This document shows positions 14,472 through 30,638 of a stretch of 64,000 bases of DNA, in pieces (the first letter of the stretch is position 1; every line of letters begins with the position of its first letter). The notes below the pieces were generated by a model. It did no database searches, was not told where the DNA came from, and saw nothing but the letters and a program-made list of their open reading frames with translations. The position numbers and the translations under genes are program-made. Source of the stretch: Clostridia bacterium (GTDB taxonomy: Bacteria; Bacillota; Clostridia; Christensenellales; CAG-314). The stretch covers positions 124,001 through 188,000 of the forward strand of contig JAVVRZ010000002.1 of the NCBI GenBank assembly GCA_036654455.1, in the 5' to 3' direction.

Positions 14472-16055
14472 ATGCCAAAGAAAATTACACGAAAAACGGC
14501 TAGCAAAAACTTACCGATTAATAAAGACGATTGCGAAGTCGCTAGTCAATTAAATACCAGTCCCGCTCAAACCTTGCCACCACAAATGGCTAGTCAAGCA
14601 GACCAACCGTCTAGCAACTTCGACGCTACAAATCAAGAAGAAGTTGCGACTGCTAACCAAGTCACAAATTCTACCGCTAGTCAAGAAGAAATTGCGACTG
14701 CTAACCCAGCCACAAATTCTACCGCTAGTCAAGAAGAAGTTGCGACTGCTAACCCAGCCACAAATTCTACTGCTAGTCAAGAAGAAGTTGCGACTGCTAA
14801 CCAAACTTCTCTTTATGAAGAAGCTATAACGCAAGCAAAACATAACGAAAAACCTTCAAACATAGTTATTCACCAAACAATAGTAAAAACCGATACCCCG
14901 CAAATCAACGTATACAAAAAAGTCGTAAGTCTAGAAGGGTTTATCTGTCTTGCATTAATCGCAGGCGGAGTAATCGCTTTCGGTTTGATTATGGGCTTTA
15001 CAAATTCGCTTAACACTATGTTTAATACCGCTTTTCACCTGTTGACAAACACTGTGTGGTATTTGCTCGCTTTGATTGTGCTTATGGGCGCTCTTTCGGG
15101 AATACTCAACGAATTTGGCGTAACCTCGATAGCTAACAAAGTTTTTTCTCCGCTTATGCGACCTTTATATGGTATGCCCGGCGCTACAAGCGTAGCTATA
15201 CTTACTTCTTTCCTTTCGGATAACCCCGCTATTCTCACTCTTGGAAACGACAAAAACTTTGCAAGATACTTTAAAAAATATCAGCTTGCTGCGCTTACAA
15301 ATATAGGCACAACTTTTGGTATGGGCTTAATTGTAATAGTGGCTATGTCTTCGGTTAAGGGCGAACATTTCTCGCTTGCAATCTTAATTGGGCTACTTGC
15401 GGTAGTACTAGCTAGTATTGTAACAACTCGCTTAATGTTATTTAAGACCAAACGAGTCTTTGGAAAAGACCAACCCGCAGTAGAAGAAGATACTTCGGCT
15501 ACCGTAGACTTACTTAAATATCGTGAAGTTCGTCAAGGTAGCGTAATGTCTAGGCTTTTTTCGGCTATGCTTGACGGAGGCGAAAGCGGAGTAAAAATTG
15601 GGCTAGGTATTATACCCGGCGTATTAATAATCGCTACCCTTGTGCTTATGCTTACAAATGGCTGTCCTGAGGGCGGTTATAGTGGCGCATACGGCGAAGG
15701 GATAGGCTTTATAACAAAGGTAGGGCAGTTTCTAATGCCCGTCCTAAACCCTCTCTTTGGCTTCAATTCGCCCGAAGCAATAGCTGTTCCCCTAACTTCT
15801 CTCGGCTCTGCCGGCGCTGCGGTAAGCCTTGTTCCCGAACTTGCTAAGTCGGGAATGCTTACGCCAAATAATATTGCCGTATTTACCTCTATGAGTATGT
15901 TTTGGAGCGGTTATCTCTCAACTCACGTATCTATGATGGATACCTTACATTTTAGAAATCTCGTAGGTTGGTCGATTGCTTTCCACACTATCGGCGGACT
16001 GCTTGCAGGAATACTTGCAAATTGGCTATTTAACTTAGTAGCGTTATTTTTATAA
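14472..16055 (+). CDS. Nucleoside-recognition (Gate) domain membrane protein
   Basis: Protein of 527 residues. The first 155 residues are polar, rich in Thr, Ala, Asn and Gln, with three perfect or near-perfect 16-residue repeats, and have no known fold. The remainder has about nine hydrophobic helices of the nucleoside-recognition/Gate family, with MGALSGILNEFGVTSIANKV and LTSFLSDNPAILTLG as clear landmarks; it resembles the clostridial CD0519/CD1768 group. Transport function is presumed but unproven. The polar extension is unusual and appears to be expanding by slippage. The start follows AAAAGGGGACA. Confidence 0.7.
   Translation: MPKKITRKTASKNLPINKDDCEVASQLNTSPAQTLPPQMASQADQPSSNFDATNQEEVATANQVTNSTASQEEIATANPATNSTASQEEVATANPATNSTASQEEVATANQTSLYEEAITQAKHNEKPSNIVIHQTIVKTDTPQINVYKKVVSLEGFICLALIAGGVIAFGLIMGFTNSLNTMFNTAFHLLTNTVWYLLALIVLMGALSGILNEFGVTSIANKVFSPLMRPLYGMPGATSVAILTSFLSDNPAILTLGNDKNFARYFKKYQLAALTNIGTTFGMGLIVIVAMSSVKGEHFSLAILIGLLAVVLASIVTTRLMLFKTKRVFGKDQPAVEEDTSATVDLLKYREVRQGSVMSRLFSAMLDGGESGVKIGLGIIPGVLIIATLVLMLTNGCPEGGYSGAYGEGIGFITKVGQFLMPVLNPLFGFNSPEAIAVPLTSLGSAGAAVSLVPELAKSGMLTPNNIAVFTSMSMFWSGYLSTHVSMMDTLHFRNLVGWSIAFHTIGGLLAGILANWLFNLVALFL
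14646..14804 (+). repeat. In-frame 48-bp tandem repeats
   Basis: Three units start at 14646, 14694 and 14742, each beginning GCGACTGCTAACC, plus 15 bases of a fourth. The units encode 16 residues (ATANPATNSTASQEEV) and keep the frame, in the N-terminal extension of the Gate-domain protein. Units two and three are almost identical, pointing to recent duplication. Confidence 0.9.
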
Positions 16056-16312: not shown

Positions 16313-17608
16313 TTATATTAGGTTTAACTTTTCGGCTTCTTCGGTTAGCCAATCTCTAAATCCCGGATGAGCGATTGAAATAAGCTTTAAGGCTCTTTCT
16401 TTCATTGAACAACCTCTAAGATTGACAATACCGTATTCGGTAGCTATATATTGCACGTCGTTACGTTGAAGACTTACGGTAGCGCCTCTTTTTAGTTGAG
16501 GCACAATCTTGCTAATCATTTTAACGTTGCCACTTTCTAGAACATTTGCCGTAGACCCTAGCACAATAAATGATTTGCCGTTTTTGGCTCTTTGAGCGCC
16601 TATCGCCGTATCGGCTTGACCGCCAGTACCGCTATATTGACGGCTACCCAACGACTCGCTACAACATTGTCCGGTTAAATCGACTTCTAGCGTTGTATTG
16701 ACTGACACTTGATTGTCGTTTTGTTGAAGTACGGCAACGTCGTTAGTGTAGCTACTGTCAAATACAATTACGTCTTTGTTGTCGTTTACAAAGTCAAACG
16801 CTTTTTGCGTGCCGTCTACTATCGAAGTGACAATCTTGCCCTTATAAAGAGTTTTGCGCGCATTTGTAACTACGCCAGCCTCTACAAGGTCAATTAATCC
16901 GTCGCCTAATAGCTCAGTATGTATGCCCAAATCTTTCTTATCTTTAAGACATTGCATAAGAGCGTCGGGAATACCGCCGATACCTACTTGCAAGCAGTCG
17001 CCGTCGTCGATATATTCGGCTACAAGGTTGCCTATTTCTCTATCTCGGTCGCTTACTTTTCCAAGTATAACCGGATTAAGAGGAATATTCTCCTCCGTAA
17101 CATAGTCAACGTCATTTAAAGAAAACTCGGTGTCGCCGTAAGTATAAGGCATATTCTCGTTGATTTCTGCAATAATAATTCTACTTTTTTGTCTTAGCTC
17201 CTTAGCAAGCCCACCACTTAGACCTGAGGAAACCATTCCGTTTGGTTTGGGCAAAGAACAAGTAGTAACAAATATATCGGGTACTCTTTGCGCCGAAACG
17301 GTAGCGCCTAGCTTAGATAGATGTGTGGGAACATAAGAAATATTTTTAAATTCTGCATTTCTTAATGGTTTAGTTATAAAAGTATCGTGGATTGTGCAGA
17401 ACGTTATGTTACGCATTTCTAGCATAGGAAAACCTTGCGGTAATCTACAAGTCCACAGTTCGACGTTGTTAACCTTGTCTTCTAATGTGTGGAACTTAGA
17501 TAGAAATCCTCTCGGCGCTCCCTGCCCCTCGCCAACGGCTACTTTGTAACCGCTCTTTACTAGGGCTAGCGCCTGCTCGGTTGTGATAAGTTTGTTGGTA
17601 TAATCCAT
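16313..17608 (-). CDS. Acetyl-CoA hydrolase/transferase family CoA-transferase
   Basis: Enzyme of 431 residues of the AcH1/4-hydroxybutyrate CoA-transferase family, which moves CoA between an acyl-CoA and a free acid through a glutamyl-CoA intermediate. Visible blocks are QVGIGGIPDALM, and the catalytic region CSESLGSRQYSGTGGQADTA with the probable nucleophile Glu. The last helices and YGIVNLRG are family-typical. It lies three bases after the oxidoreductase gamma gene, so it is the last gene of the ilvE operon. That context suggests transfer between branched-chain acyl-CoA and acetate, or activation of branched acids, rather than butyrate or succinate exchange, but the substrate cannot be read from sequence. 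Confidence 0.85.
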   Translation of the reverse strand: MDYTNKLITTEQALALVKSGYKVAVGEGQGAPRGFLSKFHTLEDKVNNVELWTCRLPQGFPMLEMRNITFCTIHDTFITKPLRNAEFKNISYVPTHLSKLGATVSAQRVPDIFVTTCSLPKPNGMVSSGLSGGLAKELRQKSRIIIAEINENMPYTYGDTEFSLNDVDYVTEENIPLNPVILGKVSDRDREIGNLVAEYIDDGDCLQVGIGGIPDALMQCLKDKKDLGIHTELLGDGLIDLVEAGVVTNARKTLYKGKIVTSIVDGTQKAFDFVNDNKDVIVFDSSYTNDVAVLQQNDNQVSVNTTLEVDLTGQCCSESLGSRQYSGTGGQADTAIGAQRAKNGKSFIVLGSTANVLESGNVKMISKIVPQLKRGATVSLQRNDVQYIATEYGIVNLRGCSMKERALKLISIAHPGFRDWLTEEAEKLNLI

Positions 17609-17611
17609 AAT

Positions 17612-18133
17612 CTACTTAGCCTCGTATCCAGCGTTAAATATCGCTATCACGCTATCTTTTTTACTCCCAAATTTGTTAGAAAGCATCTTTATTACAGTTT
17701 CTTTGTCAAGAATATTAGTAGCCTTAATAAAAGCGCCTAACATTACTATATTAGCCGAACGGTCATTGCCAAGTTTGTGAGAAATCTCAGTTGCGTCAAC
17801 ATAAATAGCCGAAATATCTTTTCTTTGTACCTTTACGTCGATTAAACTGCTGTTGACTATCATCATACCGCCGGGTACGATAGCATTCTCAAATTTGTCA
17901 AGGCTAGGTCTATTCATAGCGATAACGCAATCTGGGGTATTTACAAGGGGAGAAGCAACTTCGTCGTCGGCAATTACCAACGAACAGTTTGCCGTACCGC
18001 CTCTCATTTCTGGACCATAGCTAGGTAGCCAAGTCGATTCAAGTCCCTTATCGATTGCCGAATAGATGATAAATTTGCCTAGCGATAATACGCCTTGTCC
18101 GCCAAAGCCCGAACAAACAATTCTATATTCCAT
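17612..18133 (-). CDS. 2-oxoacid:ferredoxin oxidoreductase, gamma subunit
   Basis: Subunit of 173 residues with the conserved N-terminus GFGGQGVLSLGK and the block WLPSYGPEMRGGTANC, both diagnostic of the gamma domain of ferredoxin-dependent 2-oxoacid oxidoreductases. Together with the three genes before it, it forms a complete four-subunit enzyme that converts a 2-oxoacid, CoA and oxidised ferredoxin to acyl-CoA, CO2 and reduced ferredoxin, reversibly. It abuts the beta gene by a one-base overlap. Confidence 0.92.
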   Translation of the reverse strand: MEYRIVCSGFGGQGVLSLGKFIIYSAIDKGLESTWLPSYGPEMRGGTANCSLVIADDEVASPLVNTPDCVIAMNRPSLDKFENAIVPGGMMIVNSSLIDVKVQRKDISAIYVDATEISHKLGNDRSANIVMLGAFIKATNILDKETVIKMLSNKFGSKKDSVIAIFNAGYEAK

Positions 18134-18876
18134 TATTTGTTACCTCCTATGTCTTTATATACGCCTAGTGGATATTCTTTTGTTACTTCGTTTTTCATAA
18201 ATTCAAGCGAATCGCTTGGACTCATATTCCAGTTTGTAGGACAACTTGATAGTAGTTCGACAAGAGAGAAACCTTTGCCTTCCATTTGATAAGTAAACGC
18301 TTTCTTAATTGCTCGTTTAGCCTTAATAACGTTTGCATAATCGCTTAGCATAGCTCTTTCAAGATAAACTGGCCCGTCCTGAGTTGCCAGCATTTCGCAA
18401 ACTTTGATAGGATTGCCACAACGGCTTGCTTCTCTACCAAAGGGGCTGGTAGTTGTCTTTTGACCTATTAATGTTGTGGGCGCCATCTGTCCGCCTGTCA
18501 TACCATAAATAGAGTTGTTGATAAATATTACGGTAATATTCTCATTTCTTAAAGCTGCGTGAACTATTTCGGCTAGACCAATACTAGCTAGGTCGCCGTC
18601 GCCTTGATAAGCGAATACTACTTTACTAGGGTGAACTCTCTTAATACCAGTAGCAACTGCCGGAGCACGACCGTGAGCCGCTTCCTGCATATCGCAGTTG
18701 AAGAATTTATATGCAAATACAGCGCAACCAACAGGGGCAACGCCTATTACATTCTTTTCAAGTTTAAGTTCTTCTAGTACTTCGGCGATAAGTTTGTGGG
18801 CAATACCGTGCGTACAACCCGGACAAAAGCTAAGCGGGGTATCGGTTAGCATTGAAGATTTTTTATAAGTCGCCAT
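18133..18876 (-). CDS. 2-oxoacid:ferredoxin oxidoreductase, beta (TPP) subunit
   Basis: Thiamine pyrophosphate-binding subunit of 247 residues. CPGCTHGIAHKL near the N-terminus and GRAPAVATG, YQGDGDLASIG and NNSIYGMTGGQMAPTT match the TPP and Mg2+ site (GDG...N). It lacks its own Fe-S motif beyond the first Cys pair; the ferredoxin-like cluster subunit is encoded separately upstream. Both ends overlap the neighbouring genes by one base, a sign of tight translational coupling and fixed stoichiometry. Confidence 0.93.
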   Translation of the reverse strand: MATYKKSSMLTDTPLSFCPGCTHGIAHKLIAEVLEELKLEKNVIGVAPVGCAVFAYKFFNCDMQEAAHGRAPAVATGIKRVHPSKVVFAYQGDGDLASIGLAEIVHAALRNENITVIFINNSIYGMTGGQMAPTTLIGQKTTTSPFGREASRCGNPIKVCEMLATQDGPVYLERAMLSDYANVIKAKRAIKKAFTYQMEGKGFSLVELLSSCPTNWNMSPSDSLEFMKNEVTKEYPLGVYKDIGGNK

Positions 18877-19937
18877 TATTTGCCTACCTCCTCTACAAAT
18901 TTAACAATCTCTTCGGGCGTCATAACCGCTCCGCCCATTCTGCCGTAAAACTCAACGGGTAATCTGCCGTTTACCGATAACCTAACGTCTTCTACAAATT
19001 GACCGCTAGATAATTCAACCGTGATAAGGCGTTTGATAATACCCTTGTCGAGATACTTTTGATAAATTTTTGTGGGGAAAGGAAATAAAGTCTTAGGTCT
19101 AATTAAGCCGATTTTTACGCCCTTATTGCGTAAATTCTTAACGGTTGACTTGCAAATTCTGCCTACTGTGCCATAAGCGGTAAGTAGTATCTCTGCGTCC
19201 TCGCACATAAATTCTTCGCATTGAACTTCGTTATCTTCTACTTGCTTGTAGATAGCTTGAAGCATCTTGTTGTGAGCTTCGTTATCTTCTACTTCAATAT
19301 GTAGACTGTTGACTATTCTTCTGTCCTTGCCAGAGTGAGTGCCTGTTGTCGCATAATCTTTGGTTTCGGGGTCGGGCATTTCTTTCATAGGGGGAAATTC
19401 TACCGGCTCCATAATTTGCCCTAGCATACCATCGCCTAGTATAAATACCGGCATACGATATTGGTCTGCCTTGTCAAACGCAACATACATCATATCAACG
19501 GCTTCTTGTACGGTTGAAGGAGCGTAAACAATCATTTTATAGTCGCCGTGTCCGCCACCCTTAACGGCTTGGAAATAGTCGGCTTGCGAAGGAGTAATAC
19601 CGCCTAGACCCGGACCAGAACGTTGCATATTAACTATTACACAAGGTAGTTGAGCACAAGCTATGTAAGATATACCTTCTTGCTTTAAGCTAATTCCCGG
19701 AGAAGAACTGCTTGTCATTGCTCTTGCGCCAGCAGCTGCTGCGCCGTAAACCATATTTATTGCGGCAATTTCGCTTTCGCTTTGTATAAAGCAACCGCCA
19801 ACTTCAAACATTCTCTTTGAGAGATATTCGGGTATTTCGGTTTGGGGGGTAATAGGGTATCCAAAGAAGAATCTGCAACCGCCACGAATTGCGGCTTCGC
19901 CGATAGCTTCGTTGCCTTTAATTAATTGTTTAGCCAT
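18876..19937 (-). CDS. vorB: 2-oxoacid:ferredoxin oxidoreductase, alpha subunit (VorB-like)
   Basis: Alpha subunit of 353 residues. The sequence from KQLIKGNEAIGEAAIRGGCR through GYPITPQTEIPEYL, TSSSSPGISLKQEGISYIA and PCVIVNMQRSGPGLGG closely follows the proteins annotated in Clostridia as VorB, the 3-methyl-2-oxobutanoate enzyme, rather than typical KorA. The distinction from 2-oxoglutarate enzymes is not absolute. The start was set at the ATG at 19937, which follows GGAGGTG and overlaps the ferredoxin gene end by eight bases; the longer reading from 19982 covers that gene. Cotranscription with ilvE supports branched-chain 2-oxoacids as substrates. Confidence 0.85.
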   Translation of the reverse strand: MAKQLIKGNEAIGEAAIRGGCRFFFGYPITPQTEIPEYLSKRMFEVGGCFIQSESEIAAINMVYGAAAAGARAMTSSSSPGISLKQEGISYIACAQLPCVIVNMQRSGPGLGGITPSQADYFQAVKGGGHGDYKMIVYAPSTVQEAVDMMYVAFDKADQYRMPVFILGDGMLGQIMEPVEFPPMKEMPDPETKDYATTGTHSGKDRRIVNSLHIEVEDNEAHNKMLQAIYKQVEDNEVQCEEFMCEDAEILLTAYGTVGRICKSTVKNLRNKGVKIGLIRPKTLFPFPTKIYQKYLDKGIIKRLITVELSSGQFVEDVRLSVNGRLPVEFYGRMGGAVMTPEEIVKFVEEVGK

Positions 19938-20133
19938 TCTGCACCTCCACTGCGCTATCCGGACACATATAAGCGCAAGCACAGCAACCTATACATTGTT
20001 CGGGATTTGCAACTTGGGCTACAAAGTAACCCGCTCTGTTGCTTTTTTCTCCAATAGCAAGAACTTTTTTAGGGCAGGCTTTAACGCACAGTCCACAGCC
20101 CTTGCATACTTCAAAACTGATTTTTACTTGCAT
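19930..20133 (-). CDS. 2-oxoacid:ferredoxin oxidoreductase, delta (2[4Fe-4S] ferredoxin) subunit
   Basis: Small ferredoxin-like protein of 67 residues with two cluster motifs, CKGCGLCVKACP and CIGCCACAYMCP, each giving four Cys ligands. It carries electrons from the catalytic subunits to free ferredoxin. It is placed between ilvE (20 bases upstream) and the alpha subunit (overlap of eight bases). Confidence 0.94.
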   Translation of the reverse strand: MQVKISFEVCKGCGLCVKACPKKVLAIGEKSNRAGYFVAQVANPEQCIGCCACAYMCPDSAVEVQNG

Positions 20134-20153: not shown

Positions 20154-21209
20154 TTATTTTACGATTGTTAGCCAGTTGAATTTGTCGGGTGTCTTTCTTG
20201 TTCTAATGTCGTCAAGTTTGTAATAAGCAAGTTTGCTAATCTCTCCCACTTTGCCGTCGTTAATGCGGTAGTCTACGCCCTTATAAGCAAGTACGCTTAC
20301 CGGCGACACAACTGCGGCTGTGCCTACGCCAAACATCTCGGTAAATTTGCCAGCCTTGTGAGCTGTGATTAATTCTTCAACTGAAATTCTTCTTTCTTCT
20401 ACTTCTATGCCTTCGTTTCTAAGTATCTTCAAAACCGAATCTCTGGTTATTCCTCTTAAAATACTGCCGTTTAAAGCAGGGGTGATAACTTTGCCGTCGA
20501 CTACAAATATTACGTTCATAGCGCCGACTTCTTCAATATATTTATGCTCGGCAGCGTCAAGCCATAATACTTCGTCGTAACCGTCCTTCTTTGCCTTGTC
20601 TACTGCAAGTAAAGAAGTAGCGTAGTTACCCATACATTTAGCTTCACCTGTCCCGCCGATTGCGGCTCTTACATAGTGGTCTTCAATTCTTATTGTAGAA
20701 GGGCAATCAATGCCGTGTAGATATGCGCCAACCGGACTAAGAATAACAAAGAATTTGTATTGTAGTCCCGGTCTTACGCCTACGCCTACGTCGGTAGCTA
20801 CCATAGTAGGTCTAATATAGAGCGAACAACCATCGGCTACGGGTATCCAATCTTTTTCAAGTTTGATTAATTCGATTAAGGCTTGTTTAACTAATTCGAC
20901 ATCGAGTCTAGGCATACACATTCTGTCTGCGCTTAGATTCATTCTTGCCAAGTTGTCGTCAATACGGAAAAGAGTAATCTCTCCTTGATTGTTCTTAAAT
21001 GCTTTACAACCCTCAAATATTCCTTGACCATAGTGCAAACATAGCGTTGCCGGCGACATTGTTAAGTCGTGGTAAGGACAAATAAGCGGAGCGCTCCACT
21101 TGCCTTGATCGTAGTCCATCTCTAACATATAATCTGTAAATACGCTACCGAATTTAAGATTAGTGTTCTTTGGTTTCTCTTTAAGCTTGCTTGCTTTAAT
21201 AAATTCCAT
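20154..21209 (-). CDS. ilvE: Branched-chain amino acid aminotransferase
   Basis: PLP enzyme of 351 residues that interconverts Leu, Ile and Val with their 2-oxoacids, using 2-oxoglutarate/glutamate. Blocks that identify it are LCLHYGQGIFEGCKAF, FRIDDNLARMNLSADRMCMP, SLYIRPTMVATD, the lysine region GGTGEAKCMGNYATSLLAVD and EVGAMNVIFV. The length is that of the type II (fold IV) long IlvE. It is the first gene of an operon with the four-subunit oxidoreductase and a CoA-transferase, and is preceded by a leader of about 180 bases with features of an attenuator. The start follows GGGAGGC. Confidence 0.95.
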   Translation of the reverse strand: MEFIKASKLKEKPKNTNLKFGSVFTDYMLEMDYDQGKWSAPLICPYHDLTMSPATLCLHYGQGIFEGCKAFKNNQGEITLFRIDDNLARMNLSADRMCMPRLDVELVKQALIELIKLEKDWIPVADGCSLYIRPTMVATDVGVGVRPGLQYKFFVILSPVGAYLHGIDCPSTIRIEDHYVRAAIGGTGEAKCMGNYATSLLAVDKAKKDGYDEVLWLDAAEHKYIEEVGAMNVIFVVDGKVITPALNGSILRGITRDSVLKILRNEGIEVEERRISVEELITAHKAGKFTEMFGVGTAAVVSPVSVLAYKGVDYRINDGKVGEISKLAYYKLDDIRTRKTPDKFNWLTIVK

Positions 21210-21249
21210 ATTAGCCTCCCAAAATTTATATTGTCAACATTTGTTGAAT

Positions 21250-21322
21250 TACCTAAAAAAAGACTTCCTTTAAAGGATAGCCTTACGATTACTTGAAAAA
21301 GACTTCCTTTAAAGGATAGCCT
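21250..21322 (-). promoter_or_regulatory. Tandem stem-loops in the ilvE leader (putative attenuator)
   Basis: Two identical 27-base copies at 21257-21283 and 21296-21322. Read on the minus strand each contains GGCTATCCTTTAAAGGAAGTC, shown here as a hairpin with a palindromic TCCTTTAAAGGA core, followed by T5 (upstream copy) or T7 (downstream copy). The downstream copy looks like an intrinsic terminator; the upstream copy lies inside the leader reading frame. Because the core is palindromic, the copies can also pair with each other. The rest of the 588-base gap 21210-21797 holds a promoter, the gltA terminator and about 300 AT-rich bases in which I see nothing. Confidence 0.6.
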
Positions 21323-21387
21323 ATATAAATTACTGTGTTTAGCCCGAGTAAAACACTATTGCACATAATTATTGATAATAGTTCCAT
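21289..21387 (-). CDS. Possible leader peptide rich in branched-chain residues
   Basis: Open frame of 32 codons in the ilvE leader: it begins MELLSIIMCNSVLLGLNTVI and ends GYPLKEVFFK. Thirteen of 32 residues are Leu, Ile or Val. In-frame TAA and TAG codons just upstream limit the start to the ATG at 21387, two or three bases after the predicted transcription start, so translation would be nearly leaderless; a second ATG at 21366 also has no ribosome site. The stop lies between the two copies of a stem-loop repeat. This layout fits ribosome-mediated attenuation, but translation is unproven. Confidence 0.5.
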   Translation of the reverse strand: MELLSIIMCNSVLLGLNTVIYIGYPLKEVFFK

Positions 21388-21395
21388 ACGCTATT

Positions 21396-21424
21396 ATAAT
21401 AACGCAGTCGACTAAAAAAGTCAA
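21396..21424 (-). promoter_or_regulatory. Probable promoter of the ilvE-vor operon
   Basis: On the minus strand TTGACT and TATTAT are 17 bases apart (an overlapping TATAAT gives 20). Transcription would begin near 21389, giving a leader of about 180 bases before ilvE. Confidence 0.5.
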
Positions 21425-21736: not shown

Positions 21737-21773
21737 AATAAAAAAGCTCCTTAGCAATAGTATGTAAGGAGCT
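21737..21773 (-). terminator. Terminator after gltA
   Basis: Nine-base arms AGCTCCTTA/TAAGGAGCT with an 11-base loop; on the minus strand they are followed by TTTTTTATT. It ends the citrate/glutamate operon 25 bases after the stop codon and separates it from ilvE. Confidence 0.9.
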
Positions 21774-21797: not shown

Positions 21798-23183
21798 TTA
21801 TTGTTCGGTCTTGTATTTGTCGCTAAGATATTCCATAATTGACCTTGCCGCCGTACGCCCTGCGCTCATTGCGGTAATTACGGTAGCCGAACCATTTACT
21901 ACGTCACCGCCTGCAAAAACGCCTTCTACATTTGTTCGACACTTCTCGTCGGCTACGATTGTGCCTTTTGGGCTAAATTGTAGGTCTTGTATGGCTTGCT
22001 TAATTACTTGGTCGGGCGAAGCGCCTAACGCCATAATTATACAGTCTGCCGAAATTGTGTAATTTGAGTCTTTGATAGGGATAGCTTTGGGTCTGCCCGA
22101 GCCGTCAAGTTCGCCTAGCTCCATTTTTACGCATTCTATCCCGATAGCGTAACCGTTATCGCCTATTATTCTAATTGGATTAGTAAGAAATTTAAAGTCG
22201 ATTCCTTCGTCAACGGCGTCTTCAATCTCCTCTTTGCAAGCCGGCATTTCTTTTTCCGAACGACGATAAATACAATAAACCTTGCTTGCCCCTTGTCTAA
22301 GAGCGCATCTTGCTGCGTCCATTGCGGTATTGCCACCGCCAACTACGGCTACTACACGGTTTGCGTCTATATGATTGTCCGAAATGTCTAAAAAATTAAT
22401 TCTTGCAAGATATTCGCTAGCTGTAAATACGCCTTCTAGCTGTTCGCCCTCTACCCCCATTTGATAGGGTTTTGTAGCGCCGATTGCTATAAAGAAAGCG
22501 TCATATCCAAGCATTCTAAGATTTTCCAGCGACTGAGCATTCTCAATAGGCGAATTAGTCTTAATCTCCACGCCTAGTTCGGCAAGTTCCTCTAACTGTT
22601 TATCTACGACTTCACGAGGAAGCCTAAACTTAGGTATGCCATAAACTAACATTCCGCCTGCGTGAGCGTTCTTTTCAAAAATAGTTACGTGGTAACCATT
22701 TTGAGCTAGCTCGCTAGCGCAAGTAAGCCCTGCTGGACCGCTACCTATTACTGCAATCTTGGTGTTAATAGCGTTTGACCAGCTGACCTTTACGGGTTGA
22801 GCTATTTGCAATTTATTGACGTGATAATCTGCGATAAATCTTTCAAGACTGCCTATTGCGATAGATTGTCCCTTAATCCCTTGTATACAGTTGCCCTCGC
22901 ATTGATGCTCGTGCGGACAAACTCTACCGCACACCGAGGGCAAACTGTTAGTCAAGGAAATTACATCATAGGCTAAGTCAAGTTTATCTTCTTTTAAACA
23001 ACTTATAAATAAAGGTATGTTTGTGTGCACAGGGCACCCCGTAACACAGCGTGGTTTTTTGCAATTAAGACACCTCGTCGCCTCGGCGACGGCCTCTGCC
23101 TTGCTATAACCCATAATTACTTCGGAAAAGTTGCTTATGCGCTGATTAGGTTGTTGGTGCGTTAAAGGCACTCGGTTACTCAC
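21798..23183 (-). CDS. gltA: NADPH-dependent glutamate synthase small subunit-type oxidoreductase
   Basis: Flavoprotein of 461 residues. An N-terminal [4Fe-4S] domain has CLNCKKPRCVTGCPVH and CGRVCPHEHQCEGNC; then come the FAD site AVIGSGPAGLTCASELA and the NADPH site VAVVGGGNTAMDAARCA, and a final GVFAGGDVVNGSATVITAM. This is the family of GltD, of the single-chain clostridial GltA, and of NfnB. No NfnA gene is adjacent, and its neighbours make 2-oxoglutarate, so glutamate formation is the better reading. The gene lies 11 bases after icd. Confidence 0.83.
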   Translation of the reverse strand: MSNRVPLTHQQPNQRISNFSEVIMGYSKAEAVAEATRCLNCKKPRCVTGCPVHTNIPLFISCLKEDKLDLAYDVISLTNSLPSVCGRVCPHEHQCEGNCIQGIKGQSIAIGSLERFIADYHVNKLQIAQPVKVSWSNAINTKIAVIGSGPAGLTCASELAQNGYHVTIFEKNAHAGGMLVYGIPKFRLPREVVDKQLEELAELGVEIKTNSPIENAQSLENLRMLGYDAFFIAIGATKPYQMGVEGEQLEGVFTASEYLARINFLDISDNHIDANRVVAVVGGGNTAMDAARCALRQGASKVYCIYRRSEKEMPACKEEIEDAVDEGIDFKFLTNPIRIIGDNGYAIGIECVKMELGELDGSGRPKAIPIKDSNYTISADCIIMALGASPDQVIKQAIQDLQFSPKGTIVADEKCRTNVEGVFAGGDVVNGSATVITAMSAGRTAARSIMEYLSDKYKTEQ

Positions 23184-23194
23184 TACTTATCTCC

Positions 23195-24403
23195 TTATTT
23201 AAGCAATTTAGCAAGTCTTGATGCTATTTCTTTAATAAAGACTTGGGAATTTACTAGTTTAGGCGCAATACCTTCGGCAAGACCAACTAGGTCTTTGGTC
23301 ATTATGCCTTCTTCTAATGTTTGAATTGTAGCTTGTTCAAGTTTGTCGCCATAAGCGATTAATTCGGGTAGATTGTCTTTCTCGCCCCTCTTTTTGAAAG
23401 CTCCGCTCCAAGCAAAAATTGTAGCTACTGGGTTAGTAGAAGTTTCTTCGCCCTTTAAGAATTTATAATAGTGCTTTGTTACCGTGCCGTGAGCCGCTTC
23501 GTACTCAAAGTTGCCATCAGGCGAAACAAGTACGCTTGTCATCATAGCAAGAGAACCAAAAGCTGTCGAAACCATATCGCTCATTACGTCGCCGTCATAG
23601 TTCTTACAAGCCCAAATAAATCCGCCGTCGCTACGAATAACTCTGGCTACTGCGTCGTCAATTAAGGTATAGAAATATTCTAATCCTAATTTTTCAAATT
23701 CTGTCTTATAGGTCGATTCGTAGATATCTTCAAAAATCTTTTTAAAAGCGCCGTCATATTTCTTGCTGATTGTTTCTTTGGTTGCAAACCACAAATCTTG
23801 TTTGCTTTCGATTGCAAATTTGAAACAAGAGTGAGCAAAAGAGATAATTGAACTATCTTTATTGTGCATACCTTGTAGCACGCCTGCGCCCTTTAATTTA
23901 GCAACTTCAACTTCGGTAACTTTACCGCTATCGCCAACAAATCTAAGGGTGGCAACTCCGCCTTCTTCTGTTCTAATTTCCGAAGCCTTGTATACGTCGC
24001 CGTAAGCGTGTCTTGCTATTGTGATAGGTTTTTTCCAGGTTTTTACTACGGGTTTAACACAGTTAATTGTAATTGGAGCACGGAAAACTGTGCCGTCAAG
24101 TATTGAACGGATAGTGCCGTTTGGGCTCTTCCACATTTCTTTAAGATTGTATTCCGACATTCTTGCAACGTTAGGAGTAATTGTGGCGCATTTAACCGCA
24201 ACGCCATACTTCTTTGTTGCATTTGCAGAATCTACCGTAACTTGGTCGTTTGTGCGATCTCTTTCTTGTAAGCCTAAGTCGTAATAATCAACTTTAAGGT
24301 CTACAAAGGGAAGGATTAACTCATCTTTAATCATCTTCCACAAAATTCTGGTCATTTCGTCCCCGTCCATTTCAACTAAGGGTGTGGTCATTTTGATTTT
24401 CAT
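23195..24403 (-). CDS. icd: Isocitrate dehydrogenase (NADP+), dimeric eukaryote-like type
   Basis: Enzyme of 402 residues that decarboxylates isocitrate to 2-oxoglutarate, or runs in reverse at high CO2. The N-terminus VEMDGDEMTRILW, the substrate block SPNGTIRSILDGTVFRAPI and the C-terminal AAHGTVTKHYYKF with STNPVATIFAWSGA are those of the homodimeric type II family found in eukaryotes and some bacteria, not the E. coli type. The coenzyme is presumed to be NADP+. It lies between the aconitase-type hydratase (nine bases) and the glutamate synthase gene (11 bases). Confidence 0.95.
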   Translation of the reverse strand: MKIKMTTPLVEMDGDEMTRILWKMIKDELILPFVDLKVDYYDLGLQERDRTNDQVTVDSANATKKYGVAVKCATITPNVARMSEYNLKEMWKSPNGTIRSILDGTVFRAPITINCVKPVVKTWKKPITIARHAYGDVYKASEIRTEEGGVATLRFVGDSGKVTEVEVAKLKGAGVLQGMHNKDSSIISFAHSCFKFAIESKQDLWFATKETISKKYDGAFKKIFEDIYESTYKTEFEKLGLEYFYTLIDDAVARVIRSDGGFIWACKNYDGDVMSDMVSTAFGSLAMMTSVLVSPDGNFEYEAAHGTVTKHYYKFLKGEETSTNPVATIFAWSGAFKKRGEKDNLPELIAYGDKLEQATIQTLEEGIMTKDLVGLAEGIAPKLVNSQVFIKEIASRLAKLLK

Positions 24404-24412
24404 AAATATCTC

Positions 24413-26668
24413 CTATTTTTTTGCGTTGATAGCTGCATAATAGTTCATTAGGCAACCTTCTAGCAATATTGTTTTTTCGTCTTGGGTTAAATTTGCAACG
24501 TGAAGCATAATATCTTTGGCTATTCCGTTTGTAATAACCTTAGCTGGAATATTAGCGTTACCTTGTTCAATCGCTTGCCTTACGTTGGGAACGTAAATAT
24601 AATCGCCTACATTGTACTCAAATGGAACATCTTTGTCAATGGTAAAAGGCACAATGCCCCAGTTAATACAGTTGCTTCTATATCTCTTGGTAGCGTATTC
24701 GTAACAAATATTAGCGTCGCCGCCGAGAACTTTTTGCGAGCTTGCGGCTTGTTCTCTTGCCGAACCGTCGCCGGGCTTATTGGCAAATATACAAGAACCA
24801 TAAGAAGTAGCCTTAACTAATTCGTCGGCGTTACCAACGGTATTTAAAGCGTTAATTATGCTTTGGTCGACATTGCCGGCTCGTCTTGCCCTGTCGGCGT
24901 CTTGAACCTTCTTGCTACGAGCTACGTATTGAGGTTCTCTTCTGCCTAACGCAAAAGTTGCAAGTTTAAGAGGATTAGAGCGGTAAGAACTTGTTTCGCC
25001 CGAAGGAATAAGCTCGTCTGTTGTTGTAACGGGGTCGTGTATTACAGCTACAAGGTTGAGCAACATATTTTGCGATAACGCATACATTTTAGGCCAGTCG
25101 GTAATATTTGGTCCAAGTTTAAGTTCGACAGAATTATCTGCCTTCTTGTAACCATTATAAACTCTCTTTGCATAGATACTGCCGTCAAAGTGATATTTCT
25201 TCTTAGGTTGAGCGTAATCAATGTCGGTAGCGGCGGTTAAAATGCCACCGTTTGCAGCGGTTGCTGCAATACTTCTTGCATCCATTAAAGCAACCGAACT
25301 AATCTGTCCGTTTGCGGGAATACTGCCTTCTCTATTTGGGAAGTTTCTTGTAGTGTGTCTAATTGAAAGAGCATTGTTTGCGGGAACGTCGCCTGCGCCA
25401 AAACAAGGACCGCAGAACGAGGGTTTAATCACTGCGCCGGCTTCTAATAAAGTTTGCGCTGTGCCGTCCTTAGTGATTGCAACTGCAACCGGCATAGAAG
25501 CTGGATAAATTGACAAACTGAAATAATCGTTGCCTGTTGAAGCATTTTTAAGGATACTTGCAGATTCGGTTAAGTTATCATATAGTCCGCCTGCGCAACC
25601 TGCGATAATGCCTTGGTCAACTACTACTTTGCCATCTACAATCTTGTCGCATAGGTTATATTGGACTTTGTCGCCAAATTTCTTTTTTGTACTTTGGTCA
25701 AGTTCGGCAAACAATTCGGCTGCGTGTTCTTGCACATAGTGAATTGTATAAGCGTTTGAAGGGTGGAAAGGTAGAGCTATCATACATTCTTCGGTAGATA
25801 GGTCAATCTTAATTACCGAGTCGTAGTAGCAAATATCGCCTTGTTTAAGTTCGGCGTAGTCTTCTTTCTTGCCGTGCTCAATGTAATAGTCTTTAACAAC
25901 GTTATCGGTTACCCAAATCGAAGATAAGCAAGTTGTTTCGGTTGTCATAACGTCAATGCCATTTCTAAAATCAATAGGAAGTTTAGCTACTCCCGGTCCT
26001 GCAAATTCTAACACCTTGTTATTTACAAAACCATTCTCAAATACGGCTTTAACAAGAGAAATTGCAATATCGTGAGGTCCAACGCCCTTCTTAACCTCGC
26101 CTTCAAGCCATACTAACACAACTTGGGGAGCGTCAACGTCATAAGTATTTTTAAGTAATTGTTTAACAAGTTCCGGACCGCCTTCGCCTATGCCCATTGT
26201 GCCTAATGCGCCGTAACGGGTGTGGCTGTCGCTACCTAGTATCATACTACCGCATTTAACCATAGCTTCTCTTGCATATTGGTGAATAACCGATTGGTTA
26301 GCAGGCACATAGATACCACCGTACTTTTTAGCCGCCGACAGACCAAATACGTGGTCGTCTTCGTTAATAGTTCCGCCTACCGAACACAATGAGTTGTGGC
26401 AGTTGGTCATAGCGTAGGGCATTGGAAATTCGGTTAGTCCGCTTGCACGAGCAGTTTGGATAATACCTACATAGGTAATATCGTGGGACATTAAACAGTC
26501 AAAAACGATATTTAACTTGTTGCTTAGCCCGGACATATTGTGCTTGCGAAGAATTTGATACGCTAAGGTATTCTCCCTCGCCTCTTGCGGAGTGGGTAAG
26601 CCCTCTCCTTCTTCAATAAGGGTTTTACCATTTTTTAAGTATGCGCCCTTTTCTAACAGTTGAATCAC
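24413..26668 (-). CDS. Aconitate hydratase-type enzyme (YbhJ-like hydratase)
   Basis: Fe-S hydratase of 751 residues, shorter than AcnA and AcnB and matching the clostridial YbhJ-like group. MGIGEGGPELVKQLL, GSDSHTRYGALGTMG and the cluster ligands CAGGLYDN and CGPCFGAGD are present, as is the swivel-domain block YGSCIFANKPGDGSAREQAA. Position directly upstream of icd strongly suggests it converts citrate to isocitrate. The start is GTG, with AGGAGG nine bases upstream. The 116-base gap to citG contains a small hairpin (CAAGCTATAAGCTTG) but no strong terminator, so it may be cotranscribed with the cit genes. Confidence 0.87.
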   Translation of the reverse strand: MIQLLEKGAYLKNGKTLIEEGEGLPTPQEARENTLAYQILRKHNMSGLSNKLNIVFDCLMSHDITYVGIIQTARASGLTEFPMPYAMTNCHNSLCSVGGTINEDDHVFGLSAAKKYGGIYVPANQSVIHQYAREAMVKCGSMILGSDSHTRYGALGTMGIGEGGPELVKQLLKNTYDVDAPQVVLVWLEGEVKKGVGPHDIAISLVKAVFENGFVNNKVLEFAGPGVAKLPIDFRNGIDVMTTETTCLSSIWVTDNVVKDYYIEHGKKEDYAELKQGDICYYDSVIKIDLSTEECMIALPFHPSNAYTIHYVQEHAAELFAELDQSTKKKFGDKVQYNLCDKIVDGKVVVDQGIIAGCAGGLYDNLTESASILKNASTGNDYFSLSIYPASMPVAVAITKDGTAQTLLEAGAVIKPSFCGPCFGAGDVPANNALSIRHTTRNFPNREGSIPANGQISSVALMDARSIAATAANGGILTAATDIDYAQPKKKYHFDGSIYAKRVYNGYKKADNSVELKLGPNITDWPKMYALSQNMLLNLVAVIHDPVTTTDELIPSGETSSYRSNPLKLATFALGRREPQYVARSKKVQDADRARRAGNVDQSIINALNTVGNADELVKATSYGSCIFANKPGDGSAREQAASSQKVLGGDANICYEYATKRYRSNCINWGIVPFTIDKDVPFEYNVGDYIYVPNVRQAIEQGNANIPAKVITNGIAKDIMLHVANLTQDEKTILLEGCLMNYYAAINAKK

Positions 26669-26784
26669 AGTGTAATTCCTCCTAAATATAATACAAAATA
26701 TTGTTTTTATATATCAAGCTTATAGCTTGTTATTCTTATACTTTAATTTATCTTGTCTAATAAAGGTAATATTCTATCTAACTT

Positions 26785-27594
26785 TTAAAGCGTAATAAAT
26801 TTATATTCCTTTAACTTGTAACAAAGTAAGGTTAAACTTAACATATCTGCGCTACCGCCTCCGCTGATGTTAGCTTTAATAAATTCTTGGTCAAGCTTTG
26901 TTACCTTTGCTAAGTCAAAGTCTTTGAGCGCTTGACTAGCTATTACCCTGACTTGGCTTGCTACTACGTCGCCTACCCTATAACAAATGTTTGTGTCTGT
27001 AAGTTGCGACATAGCGTAAAGCAGAACTTTAATTTTACCGACATTGTTTACTTCGCCTAAAATTGCAAGGGAATTGGTTAAATAGTCAAAATAGCCCTCT
27101 TTTGCTTGCTCAAAAGCTCCGCTAACTTTGTATTTATCTTTTACTACTTGCCCGTGCGAATTAGCCTTAGTGGCAAGTTTGCTCAGTTGGTCGACTAACT
27201 TCTTTATAGTGTCGCAAACATTACTAAGAGTGTTGCTAATACCGTTTGCCCTGTTATAACTAACCGAACAAACAAGTAACCCTAGACAAAATATTGCGCC
27301 CTTATGAGTGTTTATGCCCAAAGTTGCGTCAAGCATAGTTTGTTCAATCTCAATTCCGCAAGTTTTTGCTCGCTTGGCAACTTCGACAAGGTCGGCGGAA
27401 TTAGATATAACCACATATTTAGCAAACTCTTTGCTAATCGCCTTAATGCTAGATACAAAAGTATCGTAATTCATATCGGCGTGCGCTCCCGAATTAGCTC
27501 GGTCAACTAAACCGGGCTTAGGGGTAGTGTCAAGTTCTTCTTGCAAAGCCCAAAAAACGGCGTCTACTACGCTACAAGAAAAATTATCTTGCAT
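26785..27594 (-). CDS. citG: Triphosphoribosyl-dephospho-CoA synthase
   Basis: Enzyme of 269 residues that makes the precursor of the citrate lyase prosthetic group from dephospho-CoA and ATP. The motif EELDTTPKPGLVDRANSGAHADMNYDTF (Lys, Pro, Gly, Leu, Val, Asp followed by the Gly-Ala-His block; first 20 residues are the most conserved) and the late GGGSADMLSLTLL are family marks. I use the Met at 27594, an 11-base overlap with citC; the longer reading overlaps citC by 41 bases and lacks a ribosome site. It is the last cit gene. Confidence 0.9.
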   Translation of the reverse strand: MQDNFSCSVVDAVFWALQEELDTTPKPGLVDRANSGAHADMNYDTFVSSIKAISKEFAKYVVISNSADLVEVAKRAKTCGIEIEQTMLDATLGINTHKGAIFCLGLLVCSVSYNRANGISNTLSNVCDTIKKLVDQLSKLATKANSHGQVVKDKYKVSGAFEQAKEGYFDYLTNSLAILGEVNNVGKIKVLLYAMSQLTDTNICYRVGDVVASQVRVIASQALKDFDLAKVTKLDQEFIKANISGGGSADMLSLTLLCYKLKEYKFITL

Positions 27595-28585
27595 AGTCTG
27601 CGTCGTGTGAAACAAGAAAGTCATAGGTTGACTGCGGAACTAATTGCTTGATTGTTTCAAAATCGTTTTTGGCGAATAACTCTCTTACGTAACTTGCGCT
27701 AATTGGCTTGTCGTTTAATTTAAGCCGTTCTATAACCTTACACTCAATGTTGTGTTTAGCTAACACTTCTTGCATAATCTCATTGTAACTACACAAAAAA
27801 ATTTCTCGCTCGCTACCCACGAAACGCTTGGTAATATTTAAAGCGGGCGCTATATGTTTACAAAATATATCTAAATCTAGTTGCATTTGGTTACGGGCAA
27901 CTATCAAATTGTCTTTAAGAAAGTACGAGGGGAAAGTAGCTGCGGAAATAATATATTCGCTACCTTGGTGTACTATTACGTTAGGCAAGTGACTTATTCC
28001 TTGTCTAACAAGCCTAAGTCTGTCGTCAAATCTAAACTTGCTTAAATCTTCGCTAACTACAAAGACGTGTAGAAAATCTACAAGTTTGCTTGCTTGTTCG
28101 ATTAAATATAAGTGACCGTTAGTAAAAGGATTGCAGTTTACTACCACAGCTCCGCTTACGCCGTTTTTACTATACGGACGCAAACTCTGGGCGTAATCGT
28201 CTATTCCATAGTGATTACTTTCAAGCAGTATTGCCTGCGAAGAACTCCCTACAACGTAAAAAGCAAGACTAGTAAACACTTGTTTGTACATAGGTTTTGT
28301 AAATACAAAAATGTTGCCGTAGCCTTGTAGTTTAATTTTTTGTCTTAGACAAGATACTAACTTGTTTGTCAAAGATTGCTCTCTAAGCTCTTGGTCAATG
28401 GCTACGCATTTTATAACATTTTTGTATGTTCCGCCTCCGCCGACTAACCTTTCGCCATCAAAAAGCCCCACGTAACAGTCTAATGTTTCGGGGCTTAAAT
28501 CGTTAGCTATGAGGAAAGACTGTACCTTATTTAAGGTACGTTTTGCACTTATGGGCATATCTCTTAACTCATAATTGTCAAACAC
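27584..28585 (-). CDS. citC: [Citrate (pro-3S)-lyase] ligase
   Basis: Enzyme of 333 residues that acetylates the thiol of the citrate lyase prosthetic group using acetate and ATP, switching the lyase on. The N-terminal third is GNAT-like. The nucleotidyltransferase part has VVVNCNPFTNGHLYLIEQA, equivalent to the HxGH motif, and the C-terminal ISASYVREL. The start is GTG after AAGGAAAG. It lies 12 bases after citX. Confidence 0.93.
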   Translation of the reverse strand: MFDNYELRDMPISAKRTLNKVQSFLIANDLSPETLDCYVGLFDGERLVGGGGTYKNVIKCVAIDQELREQSLTNKLVSCLRQKIKLQGYGNIFVFTKPMYKQVFTSLAFYVVGSSSQAILLESNHYGIDDYAQSLRPYSKNGVSGAVVVNCNPFTNGHLYLIEQASKLVDFLHVFVVSEDLSKFRFDDRLRLVRQGISHLPNVIVHQGSEYIISAATFPSYFLKDNLIVARNQMQLDLDIFCKHIAPALNITKRFVGSEREIFLCSYNEIMQEVLAKHNIECKVIERLKLNDKPISASYVRELFAKNDFETIKQLVPQSTYDFLVSHDADYAR

Positions 28586-28597
28586 TGGCTTTCCTTT

Positions 28598-29092
28598 TTA
28601 TTTATATGCTGATATAATATTTTCTATTTGTTGATTAAGTTGGCTAATGCTGTGAACTTTTGCCCTTGCGCACTCGCAAGCGGGATTGTCGCATAGCAAA
28701 CATTTGCGTTTAGCGTAACCTATACTTTCCCTTGACAAAGGAATAAAGTTTTTACCGATTACGTCAATATCAAATAGCCTGCCTAATTTGTGATTTTCTT
28801 CTATTGCGGTAGTAAGTTTCTTAACGGCAACTTCCTCTAAATCGACTACAAACAAGGACTGAAACCCTGTTGGGTCGTCGTCGACTTGTTTAAAAACAAT
28901 TAGGTCTTTAAAAGTTTGCTCTATTGTTTCTACGCCAACTTGCCCTACAAAAGTCGAATTGCTTGATTGCTTATTACTTCCAACGGCAAGGACGGTAAAC
29001 GATATTACCGTCTTGCCATATTTTTGAATTAATTGTCGTTGCAAGCTTTGCCTTGCGTCTTTGCTGGCTAGTATTTGTTGTAAACTGACCAA
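28598..29092 (-). CDS. citX: Holo-citrate lyase synthase (apo-citrate lyase phosphoribosyl-dephospho-CoA transferase)
   Basis: Protein of 164 residues that transfers the prosthetic group to CitD. Recognised from the order of short blocks SLQQILASKDARQSLQR, YGKTVISFTVLAVG, GRLFDIDVIG and the Cys-rich KRKCLLCDNPACECARA. I place the start at the TTG at 29092, one base after the citF stop and six bases after GAGG, which is within the end of citF; a TTG at 29104 would overlap citF by 11 bases. Confidence 0.9.
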   Translation of the reverse strand: MVSLQQILASKDARQSLQRQLIQKYGKTVISFTVLAVGSNKQSSNSTFVGQVGVETIEQTFKDLIVFKQVDDDPTGFQSLFVVDLEEVAVKKLTTAIEENHKLGRLFDIDVIGKNFIPLSRESIGYAKRKCLLCDNPACECARAKVHSISQLNQQIENIISAYK

Positions 29093-29093
29093 A

Positions 29094-30638
29094 CTATTCC
29101 TCAACCGCCTTAATTTGATAAATTAAATCAAGTATTGCATTGTCCGGACTTGTAACTACGCCGACAACCTTGTCGCCAAAGGGTAGTTCGTCGGGCTTGC
29201 CGAGAATTTTCTCCGCCTTTGCTTTAAGGTCTTCGATAGATACAATTTTAATGCCGGCTTTTTTAAGTCTTTTTGCAACTTCGGGTCTAGCGGGATTAAC
29301 CGCTACGCCTTGGTCGGTGACAATTACGTCTACAAACGAACCCGGCGTGATTAACGTCGTAACTTTTTCAACTACGCAGGGAATTCTACCTCTTGTTAAA
29401 GGACAAAGCACTATTGATAATGCAGCTCCGCAAGCAGTGTCGGGGTGACCGCCTATTGCCCCTCTAATTACGCCGTCGCTACCCGTTAGAACGTTTACGT
29501 TAAAGTTAACGTCAACTTCAAGAGCCGACAACATAACTACGTCTAACCAGTGAATAGCCGAACCTTGTTGATAAGGGTTAGCGTAAATATTAGCGCATAT
29601 TTGTTGGTGGAAACGGTTATTTTTAAGCGAACGCGCGGCAACCATATCAAAACTTTGTACATCAAGCAATTTGCCGATAAGCCCTTCTTCGTGAAGTTGA
29701 ACCATGTGGCTTGTAATTCCGCCAAGAGCAAATCTAGCTTTGACATTTTTGCGAATCATAGCTTCTCTAATATATTGAGTGCAAGCAAGGCTAGCTCCGC
29801 CCGAACCGGTTTGTAGAGAGAAACCATCATAGAAGAAACCGCCAAACTCAACTACTTGCGCAGCTGTTTGGGCAATTAAAATATCGTGAGGATTTTTCGT
29901 TTCTTTGATTGCGCCGGAAGCTATCTTGGTTGCGTCGCCAACTTCTTCTACGCTTACAATATAGTCAACGTGTTTCTCGCTAATTGCAACCGGTACATTG
30001 GGGTAAGCTACCAAACTATCGGTTAAAATAATAACCTTGTCGGCATATTCGGCGTCTACTTTTGCATAGCCTAAGCTACCGCAAATAGACTTCTCTTTTT
30101 CACGACTGTAACCGTTAGCGTTGCCTAAATAGTCGCAAGAAGATGCGCCGATAAACGCTAGGTCAATGTGGAGTTGTTTGTTTGCAATAGCAGCCGCTCT
30201 ACCGCCGTGCGAACGGAAAATAACGGGATTTTCCATTAAGCCGTGTGAAATTGCCTCGGCAAGTTCGCCTCTTAGTCCGCTAGTTTGAATTCTTGTCACA
30301 ACGCCGTTTTGTATATGTTTAATTAACGGACTGTGAACTTCGCTTAACGAAGAAGGAGCGATTTGTAAATTTTTAAAGCCCATACCGGCGAGTTTATCCA
30401 TAACCATATTGAGAATTTTGTCGCCGTTTCTAAAATGGTGGTGGAAAGAAATTGTCATACCGTCTTTAAGCCCTGCGCTCTTAATTGCGCTTTCAAGGTC
30501 GGTAATTTTACCGCATTTGGTTTGTAATTCTAACCTTGGGGTAAAATCTCTCTTTATTGTATTGCTATTCCAGTTATCTTCATATATTGGCATATCTAAT
30601 TGCTTAGATAATTTAGCCTCGTCAAGTAATTTATCCAT
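29094..30638 (-). CDS. citF: Citrate lyase alpha subunit
   Basis: Subunit of 514 residues, the usual length. It is the acyl-carrier transferase of citrate lyase, exchanging citrate for acetyl on CitD. Markers are GMTISFHHHFRNGDKILNMV, RSHGGRAAAI, ASSCDYLGNANGY, LQTGSGGASLACTQYI, GGHPDTACGAALSIV and VTDQGVAVNP. It starts after GGAGGATATTTAAATT and lies three bases after citE. Confidence 0.97.
   Translation of the reverse strand: MDKLLDEAKLSKQLDMPIYEDNWNSNTIKRDFTPRLELQTKCGKITDLESAIKSAGLKDGMTISFHHHFRNGDKILNMVMDKLAGMGFKNLQIAPSSLSEVHSPLIKHIQNGVVTRIQTSGLRGELAEAISHGLMENPVIFRSHGGRAAAIANKQLHIDLAFIGASSCDYLGNANGYSREKEKSICGSLGYAKVDAEYADKVIILTDSLVAYPNVPVAISEKHVDYIVSVEEVGDATKIASGAIKETKNPHDILIAQTAAQVVEFGGFFYDGFSLQTGSGGASLACTQYIREAMIRKNVKARFALGGITSHMVQLHEEGLIGKLLDVQSFDMVAARSLKNNRFHQQICANIYANPYQQGSAIHWLDVVMLSALEVDVNFNVNVLTGSDGVIRGAIGGHPDTACGAALSIVLCPLTRGRIPCVVEKVTTLITPGSFVDVIVTDQGVAVNPARPEVAKRLKKAGIKIVSIEDLKAKAEKILGKPDELPFGDKVVGVVTSPDNAILDLIYQIKAVEE

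Follow-up and report, generated by a model that had tools for sequence, protein, structure and literature searches.

The DNA analysed here, called the window below, is a stretch of 64,000 nucleotides from a Clostridia bacterium (assembly GCA_036654455.1, contig JAVVRZ010000002.1, positions 124,001 to 188,000). Its minus strand carries an operon that starts with ilvE, encoding a branched-chain aminotransferase of the class II type (20154–21209; NF009897 and TIGR01123 above cut-off), which is preceded by the ribosome-binding site GGGAGG (21215–21220). Next come a small ferredoxin-type (4Fe-4S) subunit (19930–20133), with two cysteine motifs read in the translation, and vorB (18876–19982), encoding a subunit of 3-methyl-2-oxobutanoate:ferredoxin oxidoreductase (NF005507 above cut-off). 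The first 16 residues of the longest vorB frame overlap the preceding gene, and the true start is probably an internal methionine. The beta (18133–18876) and gamma (17612–18133) subunits of a 2-oxoacid:acceptor oxidoreductase scored below the cut-offs of their models, as did an acyl-CoA:acetate CoA-transferase family protein (16313–17608; TIGR03948, E 9e-78). On the other side of the leader, the gltD-type gene at 21798–23183 has a terminator of its own (21740–21773, minus strand), read from the sequence. The leader hairpins are thus not needed for this gene, and it is unlikely that they are a plain gltD terminator. The gltD-type gene belongs to a same-strand cluster at 21798–29104, with ORFs resembling isocitrate dehydrogenase, aconitase and a citrate-lyase accessory protein (names taken from the translations; gltD was scanned).

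The ilvC gene, encoding ketol-acid reductoisomerase, was missing from each of the five genomes with the ilvE-vor operon, three of which are 76–82% complete (G031 76%, G038 and G039 82%), and was present in all 14 control genomes. Its absence suggests that the operon is catabolic, or that it converts branched acids into amino acids. Run in reverse, an ilvE-vor operon could make branched-chain amino acids from branched acids. Given the lack of ilvC, the operon cannot simply be taken for a biosynthetic one under starvation control; even so, induction by starvation would not be absurd, since the reversed operon could yield branched-chain amino acids.

The leader of the operon opens with a predicted promoter on the minus strand, with a −35 box TTGACT (21419–21424) and a −10 box TATTAT (21396–21401) separated by a 17-nt spacer, from which transcription is predicted to start at about 21389, as judged from spacing. 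It contains an ORF of 32 codons, MELLSIIMCNSVLLGLNTVIYIGYPLKEVFFK (21289–21387, minus strand). As the earlier note had reported, 13 of these codons specify Leu, Ile or Val, and the UAA stop codon (21291–21289) lies between two identical hairpins. Copy 1, followed by U5, lies within the ORF (21296–21322), whereas copy 2 (21255–21283 with its U7, the latter at 21261–21255) starts 5 nt beyond the stop codon and is the last terminator before ilvE. The 27-nt direct repeats at 21257–21283 and 21296–21322 are 100% identical, with a start-to-start distance of 39 nt.

No Shine-Dalgarno sequence precedes the ORF in the window, even though 588 of the 811 called genes in this genome have a strong one. The −10 box and the ATG are only 8 nt apart, and the start codon falls approximately at the predicted transcription start. 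The window transcript would therefore be almost leaderless, and we infer that translation of the ORF would begin at this near-leaderless AUG. When the leader was shuffled by dinucleotides, 6% of the shuffles contained an ATG ORF of 32 codons or more. ORFs of 25–60 codons with at least 13 Leu/Ile/Val codons making up at least 40% were found in 0.9% of these shuffles. Given the ORF's own composition, however, its Leu/Ile/Val fraction of 0.42 is only mildly high against an expectation of 0.32 ± 0.08 (p = 0.11).

The two hairpins share the palindromic core TCCTTTAAAGGA, and one alternative is that a repressor binds these palindromes as a pair of DNA operators. The dyads are perfect over 12 nt and occur downstream of the promoter as two copies 39 nt apart, as such sites might. 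Yet, the core has no other exact copy in the genome and only three sites with one mismatch, and the dyad is not kept in relatives, whose terminator stems differ. We regard this alternative as very improbable. The 27-nt unit likewise has no further copies in the genome when up to three mismatches are allowed. A genome-wide repeat or regulon operator was considered and rejected, as both the 27-mer and the exact palindromic core were found at the leader only. A T-box riboswitch was also rejected: covariance models detected neither a T-box nor another Rfam family in the window leader, although the genome has T-boxes elsewhere, and no T-box reached the gathering score in the ilvE loci of the family.

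The duplication itself is unremarkable, because this genome holds many short tandem duplications (52 exact entries in the 1.01 Mb scanned); its location is the notable part. Short tandem duplications with periods of 29–38 nt, some of them in multiple copies, were seen in G000 at C1:263501, C2:43982, C1:301772 and C3:122659 (0-based, stretches L160–L210), and this genome seems prone to them. Within the window, a probable membrane protein ORF at 14472–16055 carries a 48-nt tandem repeat (SQEEVATANPATNSTA) in its N-terminal part.

Our family comparison covered 41 genomes, among which the window's genus is represented by one genome only. In nine of them ilvE was found, and vorB likewise in nine; the genes are linked as ilvE-Fd-vorB only in g1 (the window genome), g5 (G031), g10 (G038 and G039) and g11 (G040). 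In every linked genome (5/5), ilvE is preceded by a promoter, a short ORF and a terminator at the end of this ORF. The four relatives, which represent three genera besides that of the window, have a TTGAC(A/T) promoter with a 17-nt spacer at the equivalent place, a Shine-Dalgarno sequence (GAGGTA) before the leader ORF, and a terminator where the window has copy 2. Their leader peptides are MTLGFFILMLLLSIIFPIILVTGKIILPNNKG (G031), MLFIKQNITALISIVGVCLHMICKHSVEDLLFDYHNNSW (G040), MAMSMQIMHKLSLKQR (G038) and MVMLMQKIMRKLNLGQR (G039). The plan was not found in g4 and g6, where the ilvE and vor genes are unlinked. The loci examined outside the family also contained no comparable leaders; there, ilvE often follows a tyrS-yigZ-type pair and vorB lies elsewhere. 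In L086 (G032), a leader of another kind stands 140 nt before ilvE, with a strong promoter, an ATG at the predicted start, a short ORF rich in Cys and Arg, and a GC-rich hairpin.

What recurs among these leaders is the short ORF and its terminator, not the peptide or the doubled hairpin that the earlier note proposed to look for. The doubled hairpin is absent from all four relatives' ilvE leaders. The peptides are not conserved between genera, the differences between G038 and G039 mostly change the amino acid (as read from the codons), and no residues, including candidate arrest residues, are evidently common to the peptides across genera. Richness in Leu, Ile and Val does not hold as a trait of the family either: enrichment was significant in G031 (p 0.008) and not in the window (p 0.11), G040 (p 0.31), G039 (p 0.41) or G038 (p 0.76). 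The peptides of G038 and G039 are rich in Met, with three internal Met residues each (p 0.006 and 0.0025, respectively).

Terminator-like hairpins ahead of genes are not unusual in the window genome, which counts against an attenuator: in 1.01 Mb, they precede 43 of 315 genes (with crude gene calling). An ATG ORF with a Shine-Dalgarno sequence ends at the terminator in one of these 43 cases, which we take to be the C-terminal end of the ribosomal protein S15 gene (rpsO). Across 397 kb and 18 genes of G040, only the ilvE leader qualified, on two duplicate contigs. These contigs, C15 and C16 (L080, L087, L225–L230), have about 57.8 kb in common in opposite orientation, including the ilvE-vor operon, which may reflect either a true duplication or redundancy of the assembly. 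Across the five leaders, the stop codon lies 4–6 nt from the terminator or within its hairpin. In shuffle tests, this placement beside or inside the hairpin gave a combined p of 0.006 with the window and 0.022 without it.

The promoter, the ORF, the terminator, the operon order and the recurrence in three other genera together support, at the level of sequence, the architecture of an attenuator. Because the same arrangement is kept in three related genera, a switch controlled by the ribosome appears probable. We therefore consider it rather likely, with a probability of roughly 60%, that this region controls the ilvE-Fd-vor-CoA-transferase operon as a translation-coupled transcription attenuator, kept in one family of Clostridia. 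Transcription from the predicted promoter would yield a leader with a short ORF that leads into an intrinsic terminator, where RNA polymerase would stop unless a ribosome bound to the leader prevented the hairpin from forming. The signal may be charged branched-chain tRNAs or the branched-chain amino acids themselves.

An alternative explanation is that the peptide plays no role in control. The window ORF would then be a relic or have arisen by chance, and the doubled hairpins a constitutive double terminator that keeps expression at a low basal level. The missing Shine-Dalgarno sequence, the frequency of ORFs of this length in shuffles and the commonness of tandem duplications are all in agreement with this explanation. 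However, well-started ORFs occupy the same place in four relatives, and the start and stop of the window ORF match the plan of the family. Control without the peptide is therefore rather doubtful in our judgement.

Ways in which a ribosome could control the leader were explored by folding with default parameters. In the ribosome-blocked folds, the nucleotides beneath the ribosome were kept unpaired, and a strict version also barred pairing across the ribosome. The 216-nt leader folds with a z-score of −3.6. A single hairpin copy folds at −7.2 kcal/mol, and copies 1 and 2 paired with each other reach −25.5 kcal/mol. The earlier note had supposed that pairing of copy 1 with copy 2 prevents termination. 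Contrary to this, the unconstrained fold joins both copies into a single long stem-loop with the same U7 at its end, so that plain copy-to-copy pairing would terminate, and as a stronger terminator.

The antitermination by a stalled ribosome that the earlier note described is predicted by the constrained folds at four codons only. With the A-site at codons 19–22 (Val-Ile-Tyr-Ile; 21322–21333, minus strand), the sole stall sites in the middle of the ORF predicted to free an antiterminator, pairing of the 3′ arm of the terminator fell to 0.53, 0.01, 0.00 and 0.22, respectively. At all other stall positions in the window, this arm stayed mostly paired. A ribosome held at codons 19–22 would cover the 5′ half of copy 1, leaving the 3′ arm of that copy to bind the 5′ arm of copy 2, a predicted state with no clear counterpart in the relatives. 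Changes in the assumed ribosome footprint move this stall window by about one codon.

These folds would suit starvation attenuation, in which a shortage of charged Val, Ile or Leu tRNA would halt the ribosome and so allow an antiterminator to form and the genes to be expressed. Three of the four effective codons specify Val or Ile; the chance that at least three of four codons specify Val, Ile or Leu is about 0.1 at a background of 0.32. The enrichment in the G031 leader points in the same direction, and leader peptides responding to branched-chain amino acids are known, including one in S. aureus (PMC5794164). On the other hand, the window's Leu, Ile and Val codons at the start (LLSII) and in the middle (VLL) of the ORF are ineffective as stall sites in the folds, and none of the relatives' leaders showed a mid-ORF stall that gives clear antitermination. 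In addition, g10 lacks Leu/Ile/Val enrichment, ilvC is missing, and the gap from stop to terminator contrasts with the 52 nt of the S. aureus ilv attenuator. A modified version confined to codons 19–22 is conceivable, but starvation attenuation seems rather unlikely as the form that the control takes.

The folds look different once the ribosome has reached the leader's stop codon. There it would cover the 5′ arm of the terminator in each of the five leaders, and in G040 it would already have read through this arm. With strict blocking, the probability of the terminator was then 0.00–0.13 in all five leaders. The proposal that rapid translation to the stop leads to termination did not hold under strict blocking, where a ribosome that has come to the stop sits on the 5′ foot of the last terminator and keeps it from forming. 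Such occlusion in five leaders points to a polarity opposite to that of the earlier note. Hence, of its account, a leader attenuator on the ilvE operon gained support from the recurrence in three genera, and the mechanism as stated did not.

This geometry suits induction by completed translation, where a ribosome at, or arrested on, the leader stop codon covers the terminator, for instance when branched-chain amino acids are plentiful. The absence of ilvC fits such control of a catabolic operon, and it is known that intrinsic terminator hairpins can be kept from forming by translating ribosomes (PMC5021804). Yet, a ribosome that terminates normally departs quickly, and the leaders have no conserved arrest residues. 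Moreover, when pairing across the ribosome was allowed, the window terminator re-formed by using the 5′ arm of copy 1 (0.96), whereas the terminators of the relatives did not; copy 1 could thus rebuild the window terminator even with a ribosome on the stop codon. Such induction is possible, though short of likely. Given the stop-codon occlusion in five leaders and the absence of ilvC, we consider it about as plausible as starvation control, and it fits the shared geometry better.

Possibly, the 39-nt duplication of the terminator has rewired the stop-codon-occlusion leader of the family and inverted the sense of control in the window. Copy 1 would both let the terminator form again when a ribosome occupies the stop codon and create an antiterminator for stalls at Val-Ile-Tyr-Ile. 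We think that such a rewiring is improbable.

Another candidate antiterminator was found in g10. The leader Shine-Dalgarno sequence GAGGUAGUU of L083 (G038) and L085 (G039) is complementary over nine positions to the 5′ arm of the terminator (GACUACCUU / GGCUACUUU), with a pairing energy of −11.8 kcal/mol and a p of 0.007 in G038, and a p of 0.125 in G039. As a general antiterminator, this pairing was rejected: in G031 and G040 it was no better than in shuffles, and it is therefore kept as an observation on g10 only. The g10 leaders could be a different switch.

In the literature searched, no attenuator was described for an ilvE-vor operon. If our reading of the leader as a translation-coupled attenuator is correct, uncultured Clostridia without ilvC would use a leader-peptide switch to control an anaerobic pathway of branched-chain amino acids. 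It would also imply that a short tandem duplication can convert one hairpin into a multi-state attenuator.

Classical attenuators of the E. coli ilvGMEDA (ilvL) and trp type follow a four-segment logic of 1:2, 2:3 and 3:4 pairing, with the stop codon before segment 2. The same segments can be drawn from the two hairpin copies of the window. However, they arise here from a perfect duplication, the stop codon lies between segments 2 and 3, and there is one short stall window. In the tnaC leader of the E. coli tryptophanase operon, termination is Rho-dependent. Like tnaC, the ilvE-vor leader would pair a leader peptide with an operon for amino-acid catabolism, and termination would be averted by a ribosome held where the leader ends, but tnaC is a conserved arrest peptide, in contrast to the unconserved peptide and intrinsic terminator of the window (PMC3902921, PMC10941005). 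Another parallel is bmrB of the Firmicute B. subtilis, where the leader ORF also overlaps an intrinsic terminator and the position of the ribosome sets read-through; bmrB differs from the window operon in that it responds to ribosome-targeting antibiotics and controls an ABC transporter (PMC4191407).

The ilv-leu attenuator of S. aureus shares with our locus a short ORF with Leu, Ile and Val codons and an intrinsic terminator before a branched-chain operon in a Firmicute, again with no T-box at that place (PMC5794164). In S. aureus, however, the operon is biosynthetic, its terminator follows 52 nt after the leader stop codon, and staphylococci conserve the leader's Ile and Leu codons (PMC5794164), whereas the window terminator abuts the stop codon of an unconserved peptide in a genome that lacks ilvC. 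The tandem attenuators of Salmonella mgtCBR likewise place more than one control point in a leader, although they use two different short ORFs rather than a duplicated hairpin (PMC3641672). In view of these likenesses and differences, we regard the ilvE-vor leader as a variant form of leader attenuation rather than as an established member of any one subtype.
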